This document shows positions 13,685 to 22,521 of a stretch of DNA of 64,000 bases, in pieces. This DNA is from Sphingomonas parva (ex Maeng et al. 2020). Lineage in GTDB: Bacteria; Pseudomonadota; Alphaproteobacteria; Sphingomonadales; Sphingomonadaceae. The translations under genes were made by a program, and so were the position numbers. The notes beneath the pieces are model-generated. The model was not told the DNA's origin. It did not search any database and saw only the letters and a list, made by a program, of their open reading frames with translations. The stretch lies in the NCBI RefSeq assembly GCF_004564275.1, contig NZ_SPDV01000012.1, positions 62,001 to 126,000 on the forward strand. Direction: 5' to 3'. Numbering within the stretch: the stretch's first letter is position 1; each line of letters starts with the position of its first letter.

Positions 13685-14467
13685 TCAGACCGCGCGCTCG
13701 ACCAGCATCTTCTTGGTCTCGGCGATCGCCTTGGCGGGGTTGAGGCCCTTGGGGCAGACGTTCGCGCAGTTCATGATCGTGTGGCAGCGATAGAGGCGGA
13801 ACGGATCCTCGAGCTCGTCGAGCCGCTCTCCCGTCATCTCGTCGCGGCTGTCGGCCAGCCAGCGATAGGCCTGGAGCAGGATCGCCGGGCCGAGGAAGCG
13901 GTCCGAATTCCACCAATAGCTCGGGCAGGAGGACGAGCAGCAGGCGCAGAGGATGCACTCGTAAAGACCGTCGAGCTTGGCCCGGTCCTCCGGCGACTGC
14001 AGCCGCTCCTTGCCGGAAGGATCGGGCGTCTTGGTCTTCAGCCACGGCTCGATCGAGGCGTATTGGGCAAAGAAATGGGTGAAGTCCGGCACCAGGTCCT
14101 TCACCACGTCCATGTGCGGCAGCGGAGTGATGCGGACGTCGCCCTTGTAATCCTCGATCGCGGTCGTGCAGGCGAGGCCGTTGCGGCCGTTGATGTTCAT
14201 CGAGCACGAGCCGCAGATGCCCTCGCGGCACGAGCGGCGGAAGGTGAGGGTCGGATCGACCTCGCTCTTGATCTTGAGCAGGGCGTCGAGGACCATCGGC
14301 CCGGTCTCGTCGAGATCGAGCTCGAACGTGTCGTAGCGCGGGTTCTCCCCGGTCTCGGGATCGTAGCGGTAGATCTTGAACTTCTTCACCCGTCCGCCGG
14401 CCGGAGCCTTGTGGTTCTTGCCCCGGGAGGAAATCCTGCTGTTCTTGGGAAGGGCGAATTCGGCCAT
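13685..14467 (-). CDS. sdhB: Succinate dehydrogenase iron-sulfur subunit
   Basis: 260 residues. All three iron-sulfur clusters are supported: [12 protein letters not shown] for the [2Fe-2S] centre, [12 protein letters not shown] for the [4Fe-4S] centre and [17 protein letters not shown] for the [3Fe-4S] centre. SdhB links the flavoprotein SdhA to the membrane anchor in complex II. The expected neighbours sdhC, sdhD and sdhA are not upstream; instead an ATP-grasp gene ends 51 bases away. The N-terminus has a basic extension (about 25 residues) before the ferredoxin fold, which is usual in sphingomonads. Confidence 0.97.
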
Positions 14468-14518: not shown

Positions 14519-15580
14519 TCAATGTTCGAGAAGACCGTGACGGCGCAGGCTCTCGCAGAGGATCGTCTCGATCAGCTGCGACTGGCTCAGGCCCGCGAGG
14601 TTGGCGGAGCGGCCATAGACCTTCTGCGACCACAGATTCGCCTGCAGGTTCACCTCGAGGAACTGGACCTTGCCGCCTTCGCGGTCGAGCCGGAACTCGA
14701 AGCGGCCGTAATCGAACGGGCGGAATTCTTCGGCCATCCTGCGGGTGTGCTCGGCGATGATCGGCATCCACTCCGCATCCTCGAACGGCACCAGCTGGTA
14801 CTTCTGGGCACGGTCGACGAGGTCGCGCTTCTCGTAATAGGTGCGCAGGTGGGTCGGATCGGCCTGCTCGAACAGCATCATCGGCATCACCACCGGTTTG
14901 CCGTCGATGGTGATCACCGGAACCTCGACGTCGCTGCCGTTGAGGAACGGCTCGACGATCGCGTCGTGATTCTGGCTGTGGATGTTCGCGACCGCCGCTT
15001 CGACGCCGGCCCAGTCGTGCGCGTCCTGAACGCCCCAGCTCGCCGAGGAGGCGTTGGGCTTGATCACCAGCCGCTCGCCGGCCGGGCAGCGCGCCGGATC
15101 GACCGGCGCGCCGCGGCGGTAGACCGTCCACGGCGCCGTCGGAATGCCGCGGGCGTGCGCCGCCATCTTGGTGAGGTGCTTGTCGTCCGCGAGGCCGCGC
15201 AGGATCGGCGAGGCGCCGAGGAACGGCAGGCCGGCGCGCGTGCAGAGCAGGGGCAGCATCATCTCGCTGTTGAGGAAGCCGCCGCGGTTGAGGAGCGGGA
15301 AGACGAAATCGACGTCCGGCTTCTCGAACAGGGTGTCGTAACGGTTGGCGAGCGTCAGGTTGAGGCCGAGCTCCCTGAGGATCTCGCGGACCTCGACGTG
15401 ATAGAGCGCGTGATTGCCGTCCTCTGGGTGCAGCCCACCATCCCAAAGAGCATGTTTGGCGATGAACATGATCCGAAGCCGGTCCTTGGCTTCCTGGGGG
15501 ATCGTGAGAGGACGGATTTGCTCGGGCACGAGGATGAGAGCCTTTCGAAGGAGGCCGCCGGGTGGCGGTGGGCGCGACAT
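14519..15580 (-). CDS. ATP-grasp ligase of unknown substrate (D-Ala-D-Ala ligase-like)
   Basis: 353 residues from the ATG at 15580. The first ~130 residues form a pre-ATP-grasp region (RIMFIAKHALWDGG, then FPLLNRGGFLNSE). An ATP-grasp core follows with LVIKPNASSASWG (ATP-binding Lys and Ser loop), a DVEVPVITIDGKPVV strand, and a metal-binding FLEVNLQANLWSQ near the C-terminus, equivalent to the E-x-N of D-alanine-D-alanine ligases. Such enzymes join a carboxylate to an amine through an acyl phosphate. It is divergent from the PLP enzyme at 15645 with only 64 bases between starts, which suggests a shared promoter region. I do not recognise a characterised homologue. Confidence 0.8.
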   Translation of the reverse strand: MSRPPPPGGLLRKALILVPEQIRPLTIPQEAKDRLRIMFIAKHALWDGGLHPEDGNHALYHVEVREILRELGLNLTLANRYDTLFEKPDVDFVFPLLNRGGFLNSEMMLPLLCTRAGLPFLGASPILRGLADDKHLTKMAAHARGIPTAPWTVYRRGAPVDPARCPAGERLVIKPNASSASWGVQDAHDWAGVEAAVANIHSQNHDAIVEPFLNGSDVEVPVITIDGKPVVMPMMLFEQADPTHLRTYYEKRDLVDRAQKYQLVPFEDAEWMPIIAEHTRRMAEEFRPFDYGRFEFRLDREGGKVQFLEVNLQANLWSQKVYGRSANLAGLSQSQLIETILCESLRRHGLLEH

Positions 15581-15644
15581 AATGCGGCCATGGTCGCAGG
15601 CCAAGAGCGCCGTTACAGGGGCCGTCCGAGGAGGAGAAGAGTTG

Positions 15645-16790
15645 ATGCACGAGGACAGCGCGGCGACCGTGGCGATGACGAAGGGCGGAGACGCGCGCAT
15701 CCTGCTGGACCCGGCGACCGGGCTGAACCGCTATTATTCGGCGCCGAGGCCGAGCAGCGTCCTTGCTTATGCATCGTCGACCGCGAACGACATCTCCCCG
15801 GCTGCCCATGAAGTCGCCGAAAGGCTGATCGAGGCGATCGGCGCGACGCCGTCCGCCGTGGCCTATGGAGAGCATTTGAGCCGGCTTCGGAAACGGATCC
15901 GTGCCGCTTATGCGATCCCGGGCGACGCCGACATCGTCTTCGCGCCCTCCGGCACCGACCTCGAATATGTCGCGCTGGCCTCGGTCGCCGGCCGCGGCCG
16001 CGGCACCCACAACATCCTGCTCGGCGCGGACGAAGTCGGCAGCGGCTGCATCCATTCCGCCTTCGGCCGCTATTTCGCCGAGAGCACCGCGCTGGGCATC
16101 GCCACGGTCGCGGGCACGCCGGTGCCTGGCATCGGCGAGACTCACGTCGAGATGATCGACATCCCGGTCCGCGACGATCACGGCCGCGCCCGTCCCTCCT
16201 CGGTGATCGCCGACAAGATGGGAGCGGCGATCGCCGGCGTCCGCGACGAGGGGCGCCACGTCCTCATCCACGTCGTCCACGGATCGAAGACGGGGCTTAT
16301 CCTGCCCTCGCTGGACGACATCGACCGGCTGCGCGCCGCGCACGGCGACCGGGTGAGCTTCGTCGTCGACGCCTGCCAGGCGCGGATCACCTCCCCGGCG
16401 ATCGCCGATTATCTCGCCCGCGATGCGATCGTCTTCATCACCGGCTCCAAGTTCATGGGCGGCCCGCCGTTCAGCGGCTTCGCCATCGTGCCCGCCTCGT
16501 TCCGCGCAGCGGCCCGGCCGCTGCCCGAGGGGCTCGCCACCGTCTTCCGCCGCGCCGAATGGCCGGAGGGCTGGCCCGGCCGCGAGATGCTGGAGGACAG
16601 CGCCAATCCCGGCCTGCTGCTGCGTCTCGAAGCCTCGATCTTCGAGCTCGAGCGCTTCCAGGCCTTCAGCCTCGAGGCCGTCACCCGCGTGATCCTGAGC
16701 TTCCACCAGGCGGTGCGAACCGAGATCATCGAGAAGACGCCGGCGACGCCGCGTCGCGCCCCATCGCCTGGCAGCTGCCGGCCGGGGTGA
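15645..16790 (+). CDS. PLP-dependent class V-fold enzyme, truncated at its 3' end
   Basis: 381 residues as read, starting at the ATG at 15645 behind GAGGAGGAG. Fold-type I features are clear: FAPSGTDLEYVAL in the cofactor-phosphate region, FVVDACQARI with the PLP-ring Asp, and ITGSKFMGGPPFSG with the Schiff-base lysine. This resembles the cysteine-desulfurase/aminotransferase class V group but I know no characterised close relative. The last ~16 residues after EIIEKTP are low-complexity (Arg/Pro/Ser/Gly) and read across a junction where another frame becomes dsbD. The native C-terminal domain therefore seems deleted, and activity is doubtful. Confidence 0.72.
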   Translation: MHEDSAATVAMTKGGDARILLDPATGLNRYYSAPRPSSVLAYASSTANDISPAAHEVAERLIEAIGATPSAVAYGEHLSRLRKRIRAAYAIPGDADIVFAPSGTDLEYVALASVAGRGRGTHNILLGADEVGSGCIHSAFGRYFAESTALGIATVAGTPVPGIGETHVEMIDIPVRDDHGRARPSSVIADKMGAAIAGVRDEGRHVLIHVVHGSKTGLILPSLDDIDRLRAAHGDRVSFVVDACQARITSPAIADYLARDAIVFITGSKFMGGPPFSGFAIVPASFRAAARPLPEGLATVFRRAEWPEGWPGREMLEDSANPGLLLRLEASIFELERFQAFSLEAVTRVILSFHQAVRTEIIEKTPATPRRAPSPGSCRPG

Positions 16791-18565
16791 CGGCTGGAGA
16801 CCCTGATTATCCGGTCCCTCAGCGGCTCACCGTCGCCGGGCTGATGAACTATGTCTACGAAGGCGAATATGCGCTGCTGATCGATCTCGCCGTGCCGCGC
16901 GGCCTCGCTCCGGGGACGATGCTGCCGATCCGCGGCAAGGCCGATTATCTGGTCTGCACCGACCAGATCTGCGTCCCCGAAAGCGCCGAGCTGGCGCTGG
17001 ACCTGAAGGTCGGCAGCGGTCGCGGAGAGCCGCGCTTCGACCGCTGGCGCGAAGCCATGCCGAGGCCGCTCGGCAGCCCGGCGCGTTTCGATCGCGCGGG
17101 CAAGATGCTGCGCATCGCCATTCCGCTCCCGGCGGCGGTGGCGCTCGACGATCCCTATTTCTTCCCCGAGACGGAAGGGGCGATCGACCATTCCGCCGTG
17201 CAGACCGTCTCCCGCACCGGCGACGTGGTGGTGATCGAGACGCCGGCGGGGCCGCTCGCACCGCAAGCGGTGGACGGCGTCCTGGGCCTCGGCAACGGGC
17301 AGGGGCTGACGCTGCGCGCGACGCCCGGCCCCGTGCCCGATGCGGGCAAGCCGGTGCACGTCGCCGAACGATCGGACGAAAGTGTCGCCGCCGCGATCCT
17401 GCTGGCGCTTGGCGGCGCGCTGCTCGGCGGCCTGTTGCTGAACGTCATGCCCTGCGTCTTCCCGATCCTCAGCCTGAAGGCGCTGAGCCTCGCCAAAGCG
17501 GGCGGCGAGGAGAAGAACGTGCGGCGGGAAGCCATGGCCTACACGCTCGGCGTGGTCGGCACCTGCCTCGCGCTCGGCGCCGCCCTGCTCGCGCTGCGGG
17601 CGGGGGGCGCCGCGGCCGGCTGGGCCTTCCAGCTGCAGGACCCGCGGGTAATCCTGTTCCTGCTGCTGCTGGTGACGGCGATCGCGCTCAACCTGGCCGG
17701 GCTGTTCGAGCTGCCGTCGCTCGGCGGCGGCGGGCGGCTGGCGGAGAGCGGCGGCACGGCCGGCGCTTTCTGGACCGGCGCGCTGGCGGCGTTCGTCGCG
17801 ACCCCGTGCACCGGTCCGTTCATGGGCGCCGCGCTCGGCGCCGCGCTCGTTCTGCCGGAAGCGGCGGCGCTCGCCATCTTCGCCGGCCTCGGCCTCGGCC
17901 TCGCGCTGCCCTTCCTGCTGCTCGGCTTCGTCCCCGCCTTGCGGCGGCGGCTGCCCAGGCCGGGGCCGTGGATGGTCCGCTTCCGGCGCGTCCTTTCCAT
18001 CCCGATGTTCCTGACCGCGCTCGGCCTGGCCTGGATCCTGGAGCGGCAGGCCGGCACGAGCGGTGTCGCGCTGGGGCTCGGCGCGACCGTGATCGTTGCG
18101 GCCGCCCTCTGGTGGGCCGGGAATCGCCATGGCTGGGCCGCCCTGGCGCCGGCGGTGCTGGCCGTGACGGCGGCGCTGTTCCTCGTTCCCATCGTCTCGT
18201 CGCCCGCCGCGGCGCGGGACGCCGGCGAGCTCGGCGCCGAGCCGTTCAGCGAGCAGCGCCTTGCCGCCCTGCGCGCCGAGGGGCGGCCGGTCTTCGTCTA
18301 TTTCACCGCCGATTGGTGCGTCACCTGCAAGGTCAACGAGAAAGCGGTTCTCGCACGGGACGAGGTGGCCGAGGCGTTCGAGACCCGGGACGTGGCGGTA
18401 CTGGTCGGCGACTGGACCCGCGGCGATGCCGAGATCGGCCGCTTCCTCGAGAAGCACGACCGCTCCGGCGTGCCGCTCTACCTCTGGTACGCGCCGCGCG
18501 CCGCCGCGCCCAAGGTGCTGCCGCAGATCCTCACCGTCGGTGCAGTGACGGGGCTGGTAGGATAA
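16739..18565 (+). CDS. dsbD: Protein-disulfide reductase DsbD, 5'-truncated (probable pseudogene)
   Basis: From codon 16742 on (GDAASRPIAWQLPAGVTAG) the frame reads as DsbD. It contains the rest of the periplasmic alpha domain (LMNYVYEG, DYLVCTDQICVPE), eight-helix beta domain with both cysteines (NVMPCVFPILSL and VATPCTGPFMGA), and the thioredoxin-like gamma domain with FTADWCVTCK. Missing are the signal peptide and roughly the first 60-70 residues. Upstream the sequence belongs to the PLP gene in another frame. A GTG at 16787 overlaps the PLP stop and could restart translation, but no signal peptide would be made, so correct membrane insertion and alpha-domain folding are unlikely. Confidence 0.75.
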   Translation, partial: AGDAASRPIAWQLPAGVTAGDPDYPVPQRLTVAGLMNYVYEGEYALLIDLAVPRGLAPGTMLPIRGKADYLVCTDQICVPESAELALDLKVGSGRGEPRFDRWREAMPRPLGSPARFDRAGKMLRIAIPLPAAVALDDPYFFPETEGAIDHSAVQTVSRTGDVVVIETPAGPLAPQAVDGVLGLGNGQGLTLRATPGPVPDAGKPVHVAERSDESVAAAILLALGGALLGGLLLNVMPCVFPILSLKALSLAKAGGEEKNVRREAMAYTLGVVGTCLALGAALLALRAGGAAAGWAFQLQDPRVILFLLLLVTAIALNLAGLFELPSLGGGGRLAESGGTAGAFWTGALAAFVATPCTGPFMGAALGAALVLPEAAALAIFAGLGLGLALPFLLLGFVPALRRRLPRPGPWMVRFRRVLSIPMFLTALGLAWILERQAGTSGVALGLGATVIVAAALWWAGNRHGWAALAPAVLAVTAALFLVPIVSSPAAARDAGELGAEPFSEQRLAALRAEGRPVFVYFTADWCVTCKVNEKAVLARDEVAEAFETRDVAVLVGDWTRGDAEIGRFLEKHDRSGVPLYLWYAPRAAAPKVLPQILTVGAVTGLVG

Positions 18566-18605: not shown

Positions 18606-20255
18606 TCAGTTCGGCCAGGCGCGGGTGCCGGCGATCCAGGTCTGGAGGACCTTGGTCTCGCGGATCGCGGCGGGCGACAGATCGGCGAAGATGTCGCGGT
18701 CGATCAGCACGAAATCGGCATATTTGCCGCGCTCGAGCGTACCGATCCGATCCTCGGCGAATCCGGCGTAGGCGGCGCCGAGCGTGAAGGCGCGCAGCGC
18801 CTGCTCGAGATTGAGGCGCTGCTCGGGCATCCAGCCGCCCGGCGGCTGCCCCTGCGCATCCTCGCGGCTGATCGCGACCGCGAGCCCGTGGAACGGGTTC
18901 GGGCTCTCGACCGGGAAGTCGGAGCCGAAGGCGAGCGGGACCTTGTTGGCCAGCATCGTCTTCCAGGCATAAGCGCCGCCGAGCCGTTCCATGCCCATCC
19001 GCGCCTCGGCCATCCGCCAGTCCGACGCTTCATGGACAGGCTGCATCGACGCGATCGTGCCGAAGCGGGCGAAGCGGGGAAGATCGGCCGGATCGACGAT
19101 CTGGGCGTGCTCGACGCGCCAGCGGCGATCGCCCTTGTAGGTATCGGCGAGCTCCTCGATCGCACCGAGCAGCTGGGCGTTGGCGGCATCGCCGATCGCA
19201 TGCACGGCGACCTGGAAGCCGTCCATCGCCGCGCGGCTCATCAGGTTGCGGATCTCGTCGTCGCGCAGGAAGCCGAGCCCGCTCTCGCGCGGCGAATCCT
19301 TGTAGGGATGCTTGAGCCAGGCGCCGCGCGAGCCGAGCGCGCCGTCGCGGTAGAGCTTGACGCCGCCCATGCGCAGGCGGCCGTCGTAGAGCCAGGGCGT
19401 GGGGCCGGTGCCGGCGACGGCGAGGATCGACTCGATACCCGCGCCGTAGGACATGATCCGCACCTTCAGCCGGCCGGCGTCACCGGCGCGGCGGATGGTC
19501 AGCCAGTCCTCGGGGCTGGTCCCCATGTCGGCGGTGGCGGTGAGGCCGTTCGAGAGCATCAGCTCCTGCGCCTTGGCGAGAGCCTGGTCGCGGATCCTGG
19601 GGAGCGGGGCGGGGACGACCTTGGCGACCAGCTCACTCGCCGCATCGACGAAGATGCCGCTCGGCTGTCCGCCCGCACCCTTTTCGATCTTGCCGCCGCC
19701 AGGGGCCGCCGTTTTCGCGGTAATCCCGGCTTCCTTCATCGCCAGGCTGTTCGCCCAGCCGGCATGTCCGTCGATTCGTTCGAGCCACACCGGCCGATCC
19801 TTCACCACCGCGTCGATGTCGGCCGCGGTCGGGAAGCGGCCGAGGCCCCAGCGTTCCTGGTTCCAGCCGCGGCCGACGATCCAGCGCGGGCTCGGGTTCG
19901 CCGCGGCATAAGCGGCGATCTTCGCCTGCGCTTCCTGGAGCGAGCCGGTGTCGGAGAGGTCGAGCTGGAGGGCGGTGAAGCCGAGGCCCATGACATGGCC
20001 GTGGCCGTCGATCAGGCCCGGGATCAGCGTCTTGCCCTGGGCGTCATAGCGGTACCGGGTGCGCTCGGGCTTCTTGTCCCCGCGCTGGAAGAGCCGCTCG
20101 ACCTTGCCGTCGTCCCCGACCAGCAAAGCGGCGAAGCGGACCAGCCGGCCTTCGCTGGTCAGCGTGTAGCCGTTGACGTTGTCCACCAGCACGTCGGCGG
20201 CGGCGGGGGAGACGCAGAACAGGGCGGCAGCGGCGGCCGCCAGGAGCTTCTTCAT
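18606..20255 (-). CDS. Secreted amidohydrolase, family 3 (YtcJ-like)
   Basis: 549 residues with a signal peptide (MKKLLAAAAAALFCVSPAAA). The metal motifs are GLIDGHGHVMG, VAVHAIGDAAN, WRVEHAQIVD and FGSDFPVESPNP, as in the amidohydrolase_3/YtcJ group. The start at 20255 is supported by GAGAAGG upstream in the transcript. The family covers N-substituted amino acid and cyclic amide hydrolases; this substrate is unknown. Divergent from the threonine ammonia-lyase gene, with 112 bases between starts. Confidence 0.88.
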   Translation of the reverse strand: MKKLLAAAAAALFCVSPAAADVLVDNVNGYTLTSEGRLVRFAALLVGDDGKVERLFQRGDKKPERTRYRYDAQGKTLIPGLIDGHGHVMGLGFTALQLDLSDTGSLQEAQAKIAAYAAANPSPRWIVGRGWNQERWGLGRFPTAADIDAVVKDRPVWLERIDGHAGWANSLAMKEAGITAKTAAPGGGKIEKGAGGQPSGIFVDAASELVAKVVPAPLPRIRDQALAKAQELMLSNGLTATADMGTSPEDWLTIRRAGDAGRLKVRIMSYGAGIESILAVAGTGPTPWLYDGRLRMGGVKLYRDGALGSRGAWLKHPYKDSPRESGLGFLRDDEIRNLMSRAAMDGFQVAVHAIGDAANAQLLGAIEELADTYKGDRRWRVEHAQIVDPADLPRFARFGTIASMQPVHEASDWRMAEARMGMERLGGAYAWKTMLANKVPLAFGSDFPVESPNPFHGLAVAISREDAQGQPPGGWMPEQRLNLEQALRAFTLGAAYAGFAEDRIGTLERGKYADFVLIDRDIFADLSPAAIRETKVLQTWIAGTRAWPN

Positions 20256-20367
20256 CGGACGGGCCTTCTCGGGCGGATGCGGAGAGGCCCGAATAAGGGG
20301 AGTTTCGGCGCGGCGCCAGATGGCACGCCGTGGGCCTGCCAAGTCCCCGAGACAGAAGGACCTTCGC

Positions 20368-21624
20368 ATGTTAGAGGCCGCCGCGATGGCCAGTCCCGCT
20401 CCCCAGTCCGCCCCGATCGTCACTCTCGCCGAGGTGGAGGCGGCCGCCCGCCGGATCGAGGGCGCTGTGATGCACACGCCGACCCTGCTCAGCCGAACCC
20501 TCTCCGAGGTCACCGGCGCGACCGTCTACGTGAAGTTCGAGAACCTTCAGTTCACTGCCGCCTACAAGGAGCGCGGCGCGCTCAACAAGTTGCTGCTGAT
20601 GGACGAGGCGACCCGCTCCCGCGGCGTGATCGCCGCCTCGGCGGGCAATCACGCCCAGGCAGTCGCCTATCACGGCCGTCGGCTCGGCGTTCCGGTGACG
20701 ATCGTGATGCCGACCGCGACTCCCACCATCAAGGTGATGCAGACCGAGGGGCACGGCGCCCAGATCGTCCTCCACGGCGACAGCTTCGACGATGCCTATA
20801 CCCACGCGCTGCGGCTCGAGCAGGAGCGCGGCCTCACCTTCGTTCATCCGTTCGACGATCCGCAGGTCATTGCCGGCCAGGGGACGGTCGCGCTCGAGAT
20901 GCTGGCCGATGCGCCGGAGATCGACACCCTGATCGTTCCGATCGGCGGCGGCGGCCTCGTCTCCGGCGTCGGCATCGCCACCCGTGCGCTTCGCCCCGAC
21001 ATCGAGATCATCGGCGTCCAGACCGAATTCTATCCGTCGATGTATTGCCGGATCAGCGGCAAGGAGCTGCCGTCCGCGGGCGACACGATCGCCGAGGGCA
21101 TCGCGGTGAAGAAGCCGGGCGCCACGACCGCCGAAATCATCCGCGGCGTCGTCGACGACATCCTTCTCGTCCCCGAGCGCGACATCGAGACCGCGGTCAG
21201 CCTCTACCTGCAGATCGAGAAGACGGTCGCGGAAGGCGCGGGCGCGAGCGGCCTCGCCGCCCTGCTCAGCCATCGCGAGCGTTTTGCCGGCAGGAACGTC
21301 GGCCTGATCCTCACCGGCGGCAACATCGACACGCGGCTGCTGGCCACGGTGCTGCTGCGCGATCTCGCCCGCTCGGGGCGGATGGCCCGGCTGCGCATCC
21401 AGCTGCAGGACGTGCCGGGTGCGCTGTTCCGGGTCGTGCGGCTGTTCGACGAGCATCGCGTCAACATCATCGAGGTCTATCACCAGCGCGTGTTCACCAC
21501 GCTGCCGGCCAAGGACACGTCGATCGAGATCGAGTGCGAGGCGCGCGATGCCGATCAGTTGAAGGCGCTTGTCGACGGGCTCGGTCAGGCGGGGTTCAAC
21601 GTCCAGCCGGTAGAGATTCACTAG
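20368..21624 (+). CDS. ilvA: Threonine ammonia-lyase, ACT-domain type
   Basis: 418 residues. The PLP lysine is in FTAAYKERGALNKL, with SAGNHAQ and PIGGGGLVSGV binding the cofactor. A C-terminal ACT domain (about residues 335-418) begins at ARLRIQLQDVPGALFRVV. The single short ACT domain and total length match the catabolic TdcB/threonine dehydratase type rather than the long biosynthetic IlvA with two regulatory ACT-like repeats, though either name is used. It deaminates threonine to 2-oxobutyrate for isoleucine synthesis. AGAAGGA 8 bases before the ATG at 20368 supports the start. Confidence 0.9.
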   Translation: MLEAAAMASPAPQSAPIVTLAEVEAAARRIEGAVMHTPTLLSRTLSEVTGATVYVKFENLQFTAAYKERGALNKLLLMDEATRSRGVIAASAGNHAQAVAYHGRRLGVPVTIVMPTATPTIKVMQTEGHGAQIVLHGDSFDDAYTHALRLEQERGLTFVHPFDDPQVIAGQGTVALEMLADAPEIDTLIVPIGGGGLVSGVGIATRALRPDIEIIGVQTEFYPSMYCRISGKELPSAGDTIAEGIAVKKPGATTAEIIRGVVDDILLVPERDIETAVSLYLQIEKTVAEGAGASGLAALLSHRERFAGRNVGLILTGGNIDTRLLATVLLRDLARSGRMARLRIQLQDVPGALFRVVRLFDEHRVNIIEVYHQRVFTTLPAKDTSIEIECEARDADQLKALVDGLGQAGFNVQPVEIH

Positions 21625-21747: not shown

Positions 21748-22521
21748 TTGAGCGCACCTTTCCGCTTTCCCCGCTTCTTCGTGACGAGCCCTGCGCCGTG
21801 CCCCTATCTGCCGGGCAAGACGGAGCGGAAGGTGTTCACGGAGCTGACCGGACATCATGCGGCCGAGCTCAACGACGCGCTCGGCCGGATCGGCTTCCGG
21901 CGCAGCCAGGCCGTCGCCTATCGTCCGTCCTGCCTCGATTGCACCGCCTGCGTGTCGGTGCGGGTCGTCGCCAACGAGTTCCAGCCCAACGGCACCCAGC
22001 GGCGCATGCTGCGCCGGCATGCCGATCTTGAGGTCACCGCCTGCAAGCCCTGGGCAACCGAAGAGCAATATGAGCTGCTTCGCCGCTACCTGAAGAGCCG
22101 CCATCCGGACGGCGGCATGGTCGGCATGGACGAGAGCGACTTTGCCGACATGGTCGAGCAAAGCCCGGTCAAGACCTACGTCATCGAATATCGCGAGCCG
22201 GCCGTCGACGGAAAGCCGGGGCGGCTGGTCGGCGCCTGCCTGACCGATCAGCAGGGTGACGGCCTGTCGATGATCTACAGCTTCTTCGAGCCGGAGGACG
22301 AGACCCGGCCCGGCCTCGGCACCTACATCATCCTCGATCACATCGTGCGCGCCGGCCGCGCCGGCCTGCCCTACGTCTATCTCGGCTATTGGGTCGGCAG
22401 CTCGCGGCGCATGGCCTACAAGTCGCGCTTCCGGCCGCTCGAGAAGCTGGGCCCCAACGGCTGGCACCGCTTCGATCCGGACCAGGCCGAGCTGCCGCTG
22501 GTGTCGCCGAAGGCTTCGTAA
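21748..22521 (+). CDS. bpt: Aspartate/glutamate leucyl(arginyl)transferase Bpt
   Basis: 257 residues, starting at a TTG (21748). Family motifs include [16 protein letters not shown], the cysteine pair [22 protein letters not shown], and the C-terminal [21 protein letters not shown]. Bpt transfers leucine from tRNA to N-terminal Asp or Glu, marking proteins for ClpS-ClpAP in the N-degron pathway; related Ate enzymes use arginine. The length fits the family. No ATG offers a better N-terminus, and only a weak CCGGAG precedes the TTG. Confidence 0.92.

Follow-up and report, generated by a model that had tools for sequence, protein, structure and literature searches.

Gene content of the locus

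In the window, which is the whole stretch of 64,000 nucleotides of Sphingomonas parva DNA analysed here, the remnant of a gene for a fold-type I PLP enzyme runs directly into the remnant of a dsbD gene. A preliminary description made from the sequence alone had proposed that a PLP-enzyme gene and a 5'-truncated dsbD meet out of frame at this place; this was confirmed, and both truncations held when the genes were compared to those of relatives. The names of two further genes mentioned below, sdhA and metH, were taken from Pfam, and the names sdhB, amidohydrolase, threonine dehydratase and bpt are those which we presume from the sequences. The features of the locus are as follows:

13685–14467, minus strand: succinate dehydrogenase iron-sulfur subunit gene (presumably sdhB), located inside the inverted stretch
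14522–15577, minus strand: gene for an ATP-grasp protein (D-Ala-D-Ala ligase-like), adjacent to the PLP gene and divergent from it; immediately next to dsbD in genome G015
15645–16761, plus strand: remnant of the fold-type I PLP enzyme gene, from the ATG to the last base with clear homology to relatives (codons RRVAP)
16746, plus strand: one base more than in relatives, changing the PLP frame ahead of the join; placed here at all four gap penalties
16746–16790, plus strand: out-of-frame tail of the PLP open reading frame (TPRRAPSPGSCRPG) with TGA at its end
16761–16764, plus strand: join, where PLP homology ends and DsbD homology (I-A-W codons) begins
16763–18565, plus strand: dsbD remnant, containing the last part of the N-terminal periplasmic domain, which includes its CxxxxC pair, the membrane domain and the thioredoxin domain
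16787–16790, plus strand: GTGA, a GTG codon in the DsbD frame that overlaps the PLP stop; candidate re-start point
18606–20513, minus strand: amidohydrolase-like gene (name presumed), downstream neighbour of dsbD in 6/10 dsbD regions of other genomes
20173–21624, plus strand: threonine dehydratase-like gene (name presumed), in the same 6/10 dsbD regions as the amidohydrolase-like gene
21748–22521, plus strand: arginyl-tRNA-protein transferase-like gene (bpt; name presumed), in the same 6/10 dsbD regions

The PLP gene remnant

The PLP-like open reading frame starts with an ATG at 15645 and, as had been described, ends at 16790 with a nonsense-like tail: the TGA stop (16788–16790) follows a stretch that is not homologous to relatives. 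The window protein does not have a complete C-terminal part, as the last 109 amino acids of the G006 protein have no counterpart in it. By comparison, the C-terminal 114 amino acids of the G006 protein were present in 39/39 PLP loci compared, which are the best-scoring ones and come from 39 of the 66 other genomes that gave a PLP match. Eight PLP relatives were asked for the number of residues after RRVAP; seven gave a value, ranging from 109 to 129 amino acids, with G006 at 109.

The fold was assigned from a structure model of the full-length G006 relative, not of the window protein. The model had a mean pLDDT of 82.1 and a pTM of 0.87, and a Foldseek comparison with fold-type I PLP enzymes gave many matches with a probability of 1.00 and E-values down to 1.2e-12. 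The G006 protein is therefore predicted to share the fold common to these enzymes (cysteine desulfurase, SHMT, serine palmitoyltransferase, and others). It differs from them in that TM-scores by query length were 0.44–0.56, and sequence identity was 11–17%, among the 50 matches listed. No Pfam family matched the PLP protein at E up to 1, and a PDB sequence search with it returned no useful match. The lysine of a TGSKF motif was invariant in 15/15 aligned sequences; from the fold, we take this residue to be the putative PLP-binding lysine. In the G006 model, the last 109 residues, which are those lost in the window, form C-terminal strands and helices and include stretches conserved in relatives. 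Because the lost residues hold these elements, the PLP protein of the window likely lost its function, judging from the model.

The PLP family was found in 59/397 sampled genomes of the bacterial family, including the window's own. Three of the 59 PLP-positive genomes gave weak matches only, with internal stop codons (E 7e-5 to 9e-4). The PLP gene was divergent to an ATP-grasp gene in all 16 regions with a called PLP gene, window included. This PLP family, which has a fold-type I model but no Pfam match at E up to 1 and no useful PDB match, is represented by 15645–16761 of the window and by L085:5471–6922. In G152 (C7:107406–108445), the PLP gene reads as two adjoining pieces.

The dsbD remnant

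Compared to the intact DsbD of G015, a genome of the same genus, the remnant lacks a signal peptide (by eye) and about 75 residues. This number was counted by hand on the G015 translation, as the residues before the isoleucine where homology begins. The missing signal peptide thus agrees with what had been described, while the estimate of 60–70 lost residues was too low. The DsbD-like frame matched only positions 41–116 of the 119 positions of Pfam DsbD_N, leaving the first 40 unmatched, whereas the G015 protein matched positions 3–116. Both other domains were kept (DsbD_TM, 5.9e-15; Thioredoxin_7, 5.1e-19). Like known DsbD proteins, which consist of DsbD_N, DsbD_TM and Thioredoxin_7, the remnant retains the membrane domain, the thioredoxin domain and, from the N-terminal domain, the end that bears the cysteines; it differs from them by the missing N-terminal part, which the relatives checked carry. 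The NPG..G motif of the DsbD N-terminus was present with its spacing in 29/29 DsbD loci compared, again the best-scoring ones, from 29 of the 55 other genomes that gave a DsbD match. When relatives were searched for the same short PLP gene or the same short DsbD, the parts missing in the window were found in all 39 PLP and all 29 DsbD loci compared.

In the family sample dsbD is near-universal, as it was detected in 356/397 genomes (E up to 1e-150). In G032 (C1:1705148–1707050), dsbD homology consists of three adjoining pieces in different frames, representing either a broken copy or sequencing errors; this genome has a completeness of 86% and a contamination of 7%.

Extent of the loss

The loss comprises 109 amino acids of the PLP protein (compared to G006) and about 75 amino acids of DsbD (compared to G015), which corresponds to a minimum of 327 + 3 + 225 = 555 bp, to which any DNA between the two genes has to be added. 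The possibility that the lost pieces had been relocated within the genome was rejected after a search of the window's own genome with the sequences of relatives, in which neither piece was found. With the PLP C-terminus as query, only the junction matched (E 0.01); the DsbD N-terminus matched the junction, a DsbD-like paralogue on contig C3 and, at E 0.06 or worse, four further places.

Gene order and inversion

To compare gene order, we clustered the ORFs of regions from relatives, up to 20 kb long, and searched these regions by tblastn. The older order was observed in G018 and G009, both of the same genus: sdhA – PLP gene (reverse) – ATP-grasp – sdhB, followed further on by metH – dsbD. Both genomes have the PLP gene on the strand opposite to dsbD, at a distance of about 33 kb. 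In G018, sdhA and the PLP gene are neighbours with one small ORF called between them, and metH and dsbD are neighbours with 2.4 kb without a called gene between them; G009 has the same basic order with more genes between. G298, which belongs to another genus, showed the older order from the PLP gene to dsbD in the two regions compared, which lie 10 kb apart.

On the window's contig, sdhA is followed by a reversed metH, the block then runs backwards, and the PLP gene is found directly before dsbD in the same direction. Both sdhA and metH, as well as the PLP gene and dsbD, are thus neighbours in the window, flipped relative to G018. The inverted stretch, from the place of the PLP gene to metH, measures about 27 kb in the window's genome. 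The inversion and the new neighbourhood of sdhA and metH are common to the window's genome (G000) and G015, with flipped order at both ends. G015 carries the ATP-grasp gene immediately next to an intact dsbD, and a search of the G015 genome for the PLP gene found none. An ancestral neighbourhood of the PLP gene and dsbD is supported only in part: the two are far apart in G018 and G009, and an inversion shared with G015 brought them together. The inversion and the loss might also have been one event in the window's lineage, with an independent inversion in G015.

Relatives in which an intact PLP gene and an intact dsbD lie side by side, as the preliminary description had anticipated, were looked for and not found among the loci compared. 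In 0/39 PLP loci was dsbD present within flanks of about 1.5 kb, and in 0/16 named loci was dsbD (E up to 1e-10) present near the PLP gene with flanks of up to 10 kb. The two halves were listed together in none of the 25 other genomes of the genus.

A beta-helix gene upstream of dsbD in several relatives was tried as a marker for the lost DNA. It was rejected as uninformative on the deletion, because it is located away from dsbD in G000, G015, and G018.

Possible use of the dsbD remnant and a second DsbD-like gene

The overlap of GTG in the DsbD frame with the PLP stop at 16787–16790 raises the question whether ribosomes finishing the short PLP open reading frame restart at GTGA, so that a truncated DsbD, a membrane reductase without the exported first part, would still be made and used. 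Such use would be compatible with a deletion history. In its favour, no stop codon interrupts the DsbD frame over 608 codons, each of the three domains still has its cysteine pair (by inspection), and changes at codon positions 1 and 2 are no more than in the intact dsbD of G015. Nevertheless, we consider it unlikely: no signal peptide was seen by eye, either when the frame was read from 16559 or from 16787, the first 40 of the 119 DsbD_N positions are unmatched, the short form was found in 0/29 DsbD loci checked, and the open frame is accounted for just as well by a recent loss.

The changes along each lineage were counted by codon position. For positions 1 and 2 versus position 3, the dsbD remnant had 38:40 and the intact G015 dsbD 50:47; with other outgroups the counts were 37:39 and 62:56, respectively. 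In the window's lineage, the ratios were 0.95 for dsbD and 1.06–1.10 for the PLP gene, compared to 0.20–0.72 for neighbouring genes; in G015 they were 1.06–1.11 for the intact dsbD and 0.22–0.82 for seven neighbouring genes. The changes in the PLP gene (34:31 in the window versus 20:26 in G006, and 35:33 versus 32:36 in G010) were too few to decide. No signal of relaxed selection in the dsbD remnant relative to G015 dsbD was detected by these codon-position changes. As the ratio of G015 dsbD is as high as that of the remnant, the test cannot date the loss, and it is a weak one because ratios of control genes span 0.20 to 1.18 over the lineages compared. The pattern of changes in dsbD suits a recent loss and would also suit a remnant that still works.

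When the genome was searched for another dsbD, a second, full-length DsbD-like gene with all three domains was found on contig C3. At this locus (L120:7467–11279), redoxin-like, DsbA-like and the second DsbD-like genes are arranged in a row, which is adjoined by genes for a response regulator and a histidine kinase. The paralogue matched only DsbD subfamily and TsoB models in NCBIfam (E up to 1e-5), far below their cut-offs, and no Scs model at the same threshold. With its DsbA-like, redoxin-like and two-component neighbours, the C3 paralogue resembles ScsB/ScsC-type thiol systems (PMC8900818); the likeness is one of gene neighbourhood.

As stated in PMC7347389, the N-terminal domain of DsbD hands reductant to CcmG, DsbC, and DsbG. 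The earlier proposal that the event at the join would inactivate periplasmic thiol reduction is weakened by the gene on C3: with this second, full-length DsbD-like gene in the genome, periplasmic reduction may have survived the event. It is quite improbable that the short DsbD, made through GTGA-coupled translation, serves as a membrane thiol reductase that has no exported N-terminal domain and works together with the C3 system, so that the pathway would be remodelled and not broken. Given that dsbD is near-universal, its truncated copy together with a second DsbD-like gene in this genome offers a natural test of whether such a paralogue is able to replace it.

Position of the join

To locate the join, we used a jumping alignment, which switches from a profile of 14 PLP sequences to one of 27 DsbD sequences, at four gap penalties. 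The profiles contain the loci that passed a motif filter (14/20 PLP loci and 27/29 DsbD loci); the rest were left out. All four gap penalties gave an insertion at 16746 and a switch from PLP to DsbD between 16763 and 16764. Directly after the extra base, 16747–16761 provide the 15 bases for the PLP codons RRVAP. This segment scored 19.1 bits as PLP, compared to 6.7 bits for the best of 3,499 other 15-mers (15001–18514). As DsbD, 16763–16780 scored 22.4 bits, and 16751–16762 scored −5.1 bits even with the best 3-base gap. The profile alignment and the segment scores therefore place the join between 16761 and 16764, and not at about 16740 as previously suggested. On these scores, the sequence shared at the join would amount to a base or two at most. 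Either a separate mutation or a sequencing error could account for the extra base at 16746.

An assembly or sequencing artefact, in which the flanks were joined wrongly or unreliable bases created the break, is rather hard to credit. The genome is a 111-contig assembly, and base-calling errors do produce changes like the single base added at 16746. However, G015 has the same order on both sides, ATP-grasp followed by dsbD, the sequence shared at the join would be far too short to mislead an assembler, and the missing pieces were found on no other contig, where a wrong join would have left them. A distant chimera was set aside because the gene order of G015 shows both flanks as true neighbours, and a chimeric assembly thus appears unlikely.

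The deletion was previously attributed to microhomology, because GGCGACGCC, read in the DsbD frame, gives the G-D-A of NPGDAG, a DsbD motif (as DsbD, 16742–16750 scored 11.7 bits). A deletion between direct copies of the 12-base word GCCGGCGACGCC, one in the PLP gene and one in dsbD, is nevertheless extremely unlikely. By the segment scores given above, 16747–16761 fits PLP and 16751–16762 does not fit DsbD, and the join was placed later at all four gap penalties. In addition, each of the 27 DsbD sequences listed carries another glycine and counts 11 residues from G to W; the window would have an alanine and 10 residues, one short. The 12-base microhomology was therefore rejected, and the fit of GCCGGCGACGCC to both genes is, from the alignment, a coincidence. 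What remains of the earlier account is a deletion that joined two unrelated genes out of frame, with DNA missing on both sides; the short repeats do not. A short word that fits both parents can be coincidence, and profile alignment places a join better than the eye.

Proposed history of the locus

The site is very probably the scar of a lineage-specific deletion at the end of an older inversion. In a first step, one inversion in the common ancestor with G015 would have brought the PLP gene directly upstream of dsbD in the same direction. In a second step, the window's lineage would have lost the last ~109 PLP codons, the intergenic DNA and the first ~75 dsbD codons, at least about 555 bp, and the ends would have been joined with little or no homology. 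On the G015 branch, the PLP gene would have been lost whole in a separate event, while dsbD was kept whole. Based on gene order, one inversion followed by two independent losses would be the simplest history. We infer the intermediate with both genes whole after the inversion, because no such genome was found. As an outcome, both genes in the window would be non-functional or nearly so.

Gene fusions and pseudogenes generated by deletion at the ends of rearrangements are known in bacterial genomes. The event described here is most likely an ordinary, lineage-specific gene loss, and its new parts are the corrected join and the inversion history. As in other deletion-generated fusions, two neighbours were truncated by one loss, out of frame and in one lineage, and one of the genes has a paralogue. 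It differs from typical cases in that the neighbours were first brought side by side by an inversion common to one other genome, and in that both inversion-bearing genomes then lost DNA at that place. The locus thereby presents a clear two-step gene loss, in which a rearrangement creates neighbours and a small deletion over the new border damages both.

Among the matches listed, the nearest PLP gene and dsbD on the same strand were found in G129 (L146:5634–11853), 2.7 kb apart from ORF to ORF. One gene is called between them, and that dsbD has other downstream neighbours; this pair is an independent approach of the PLP gene and dsbD.
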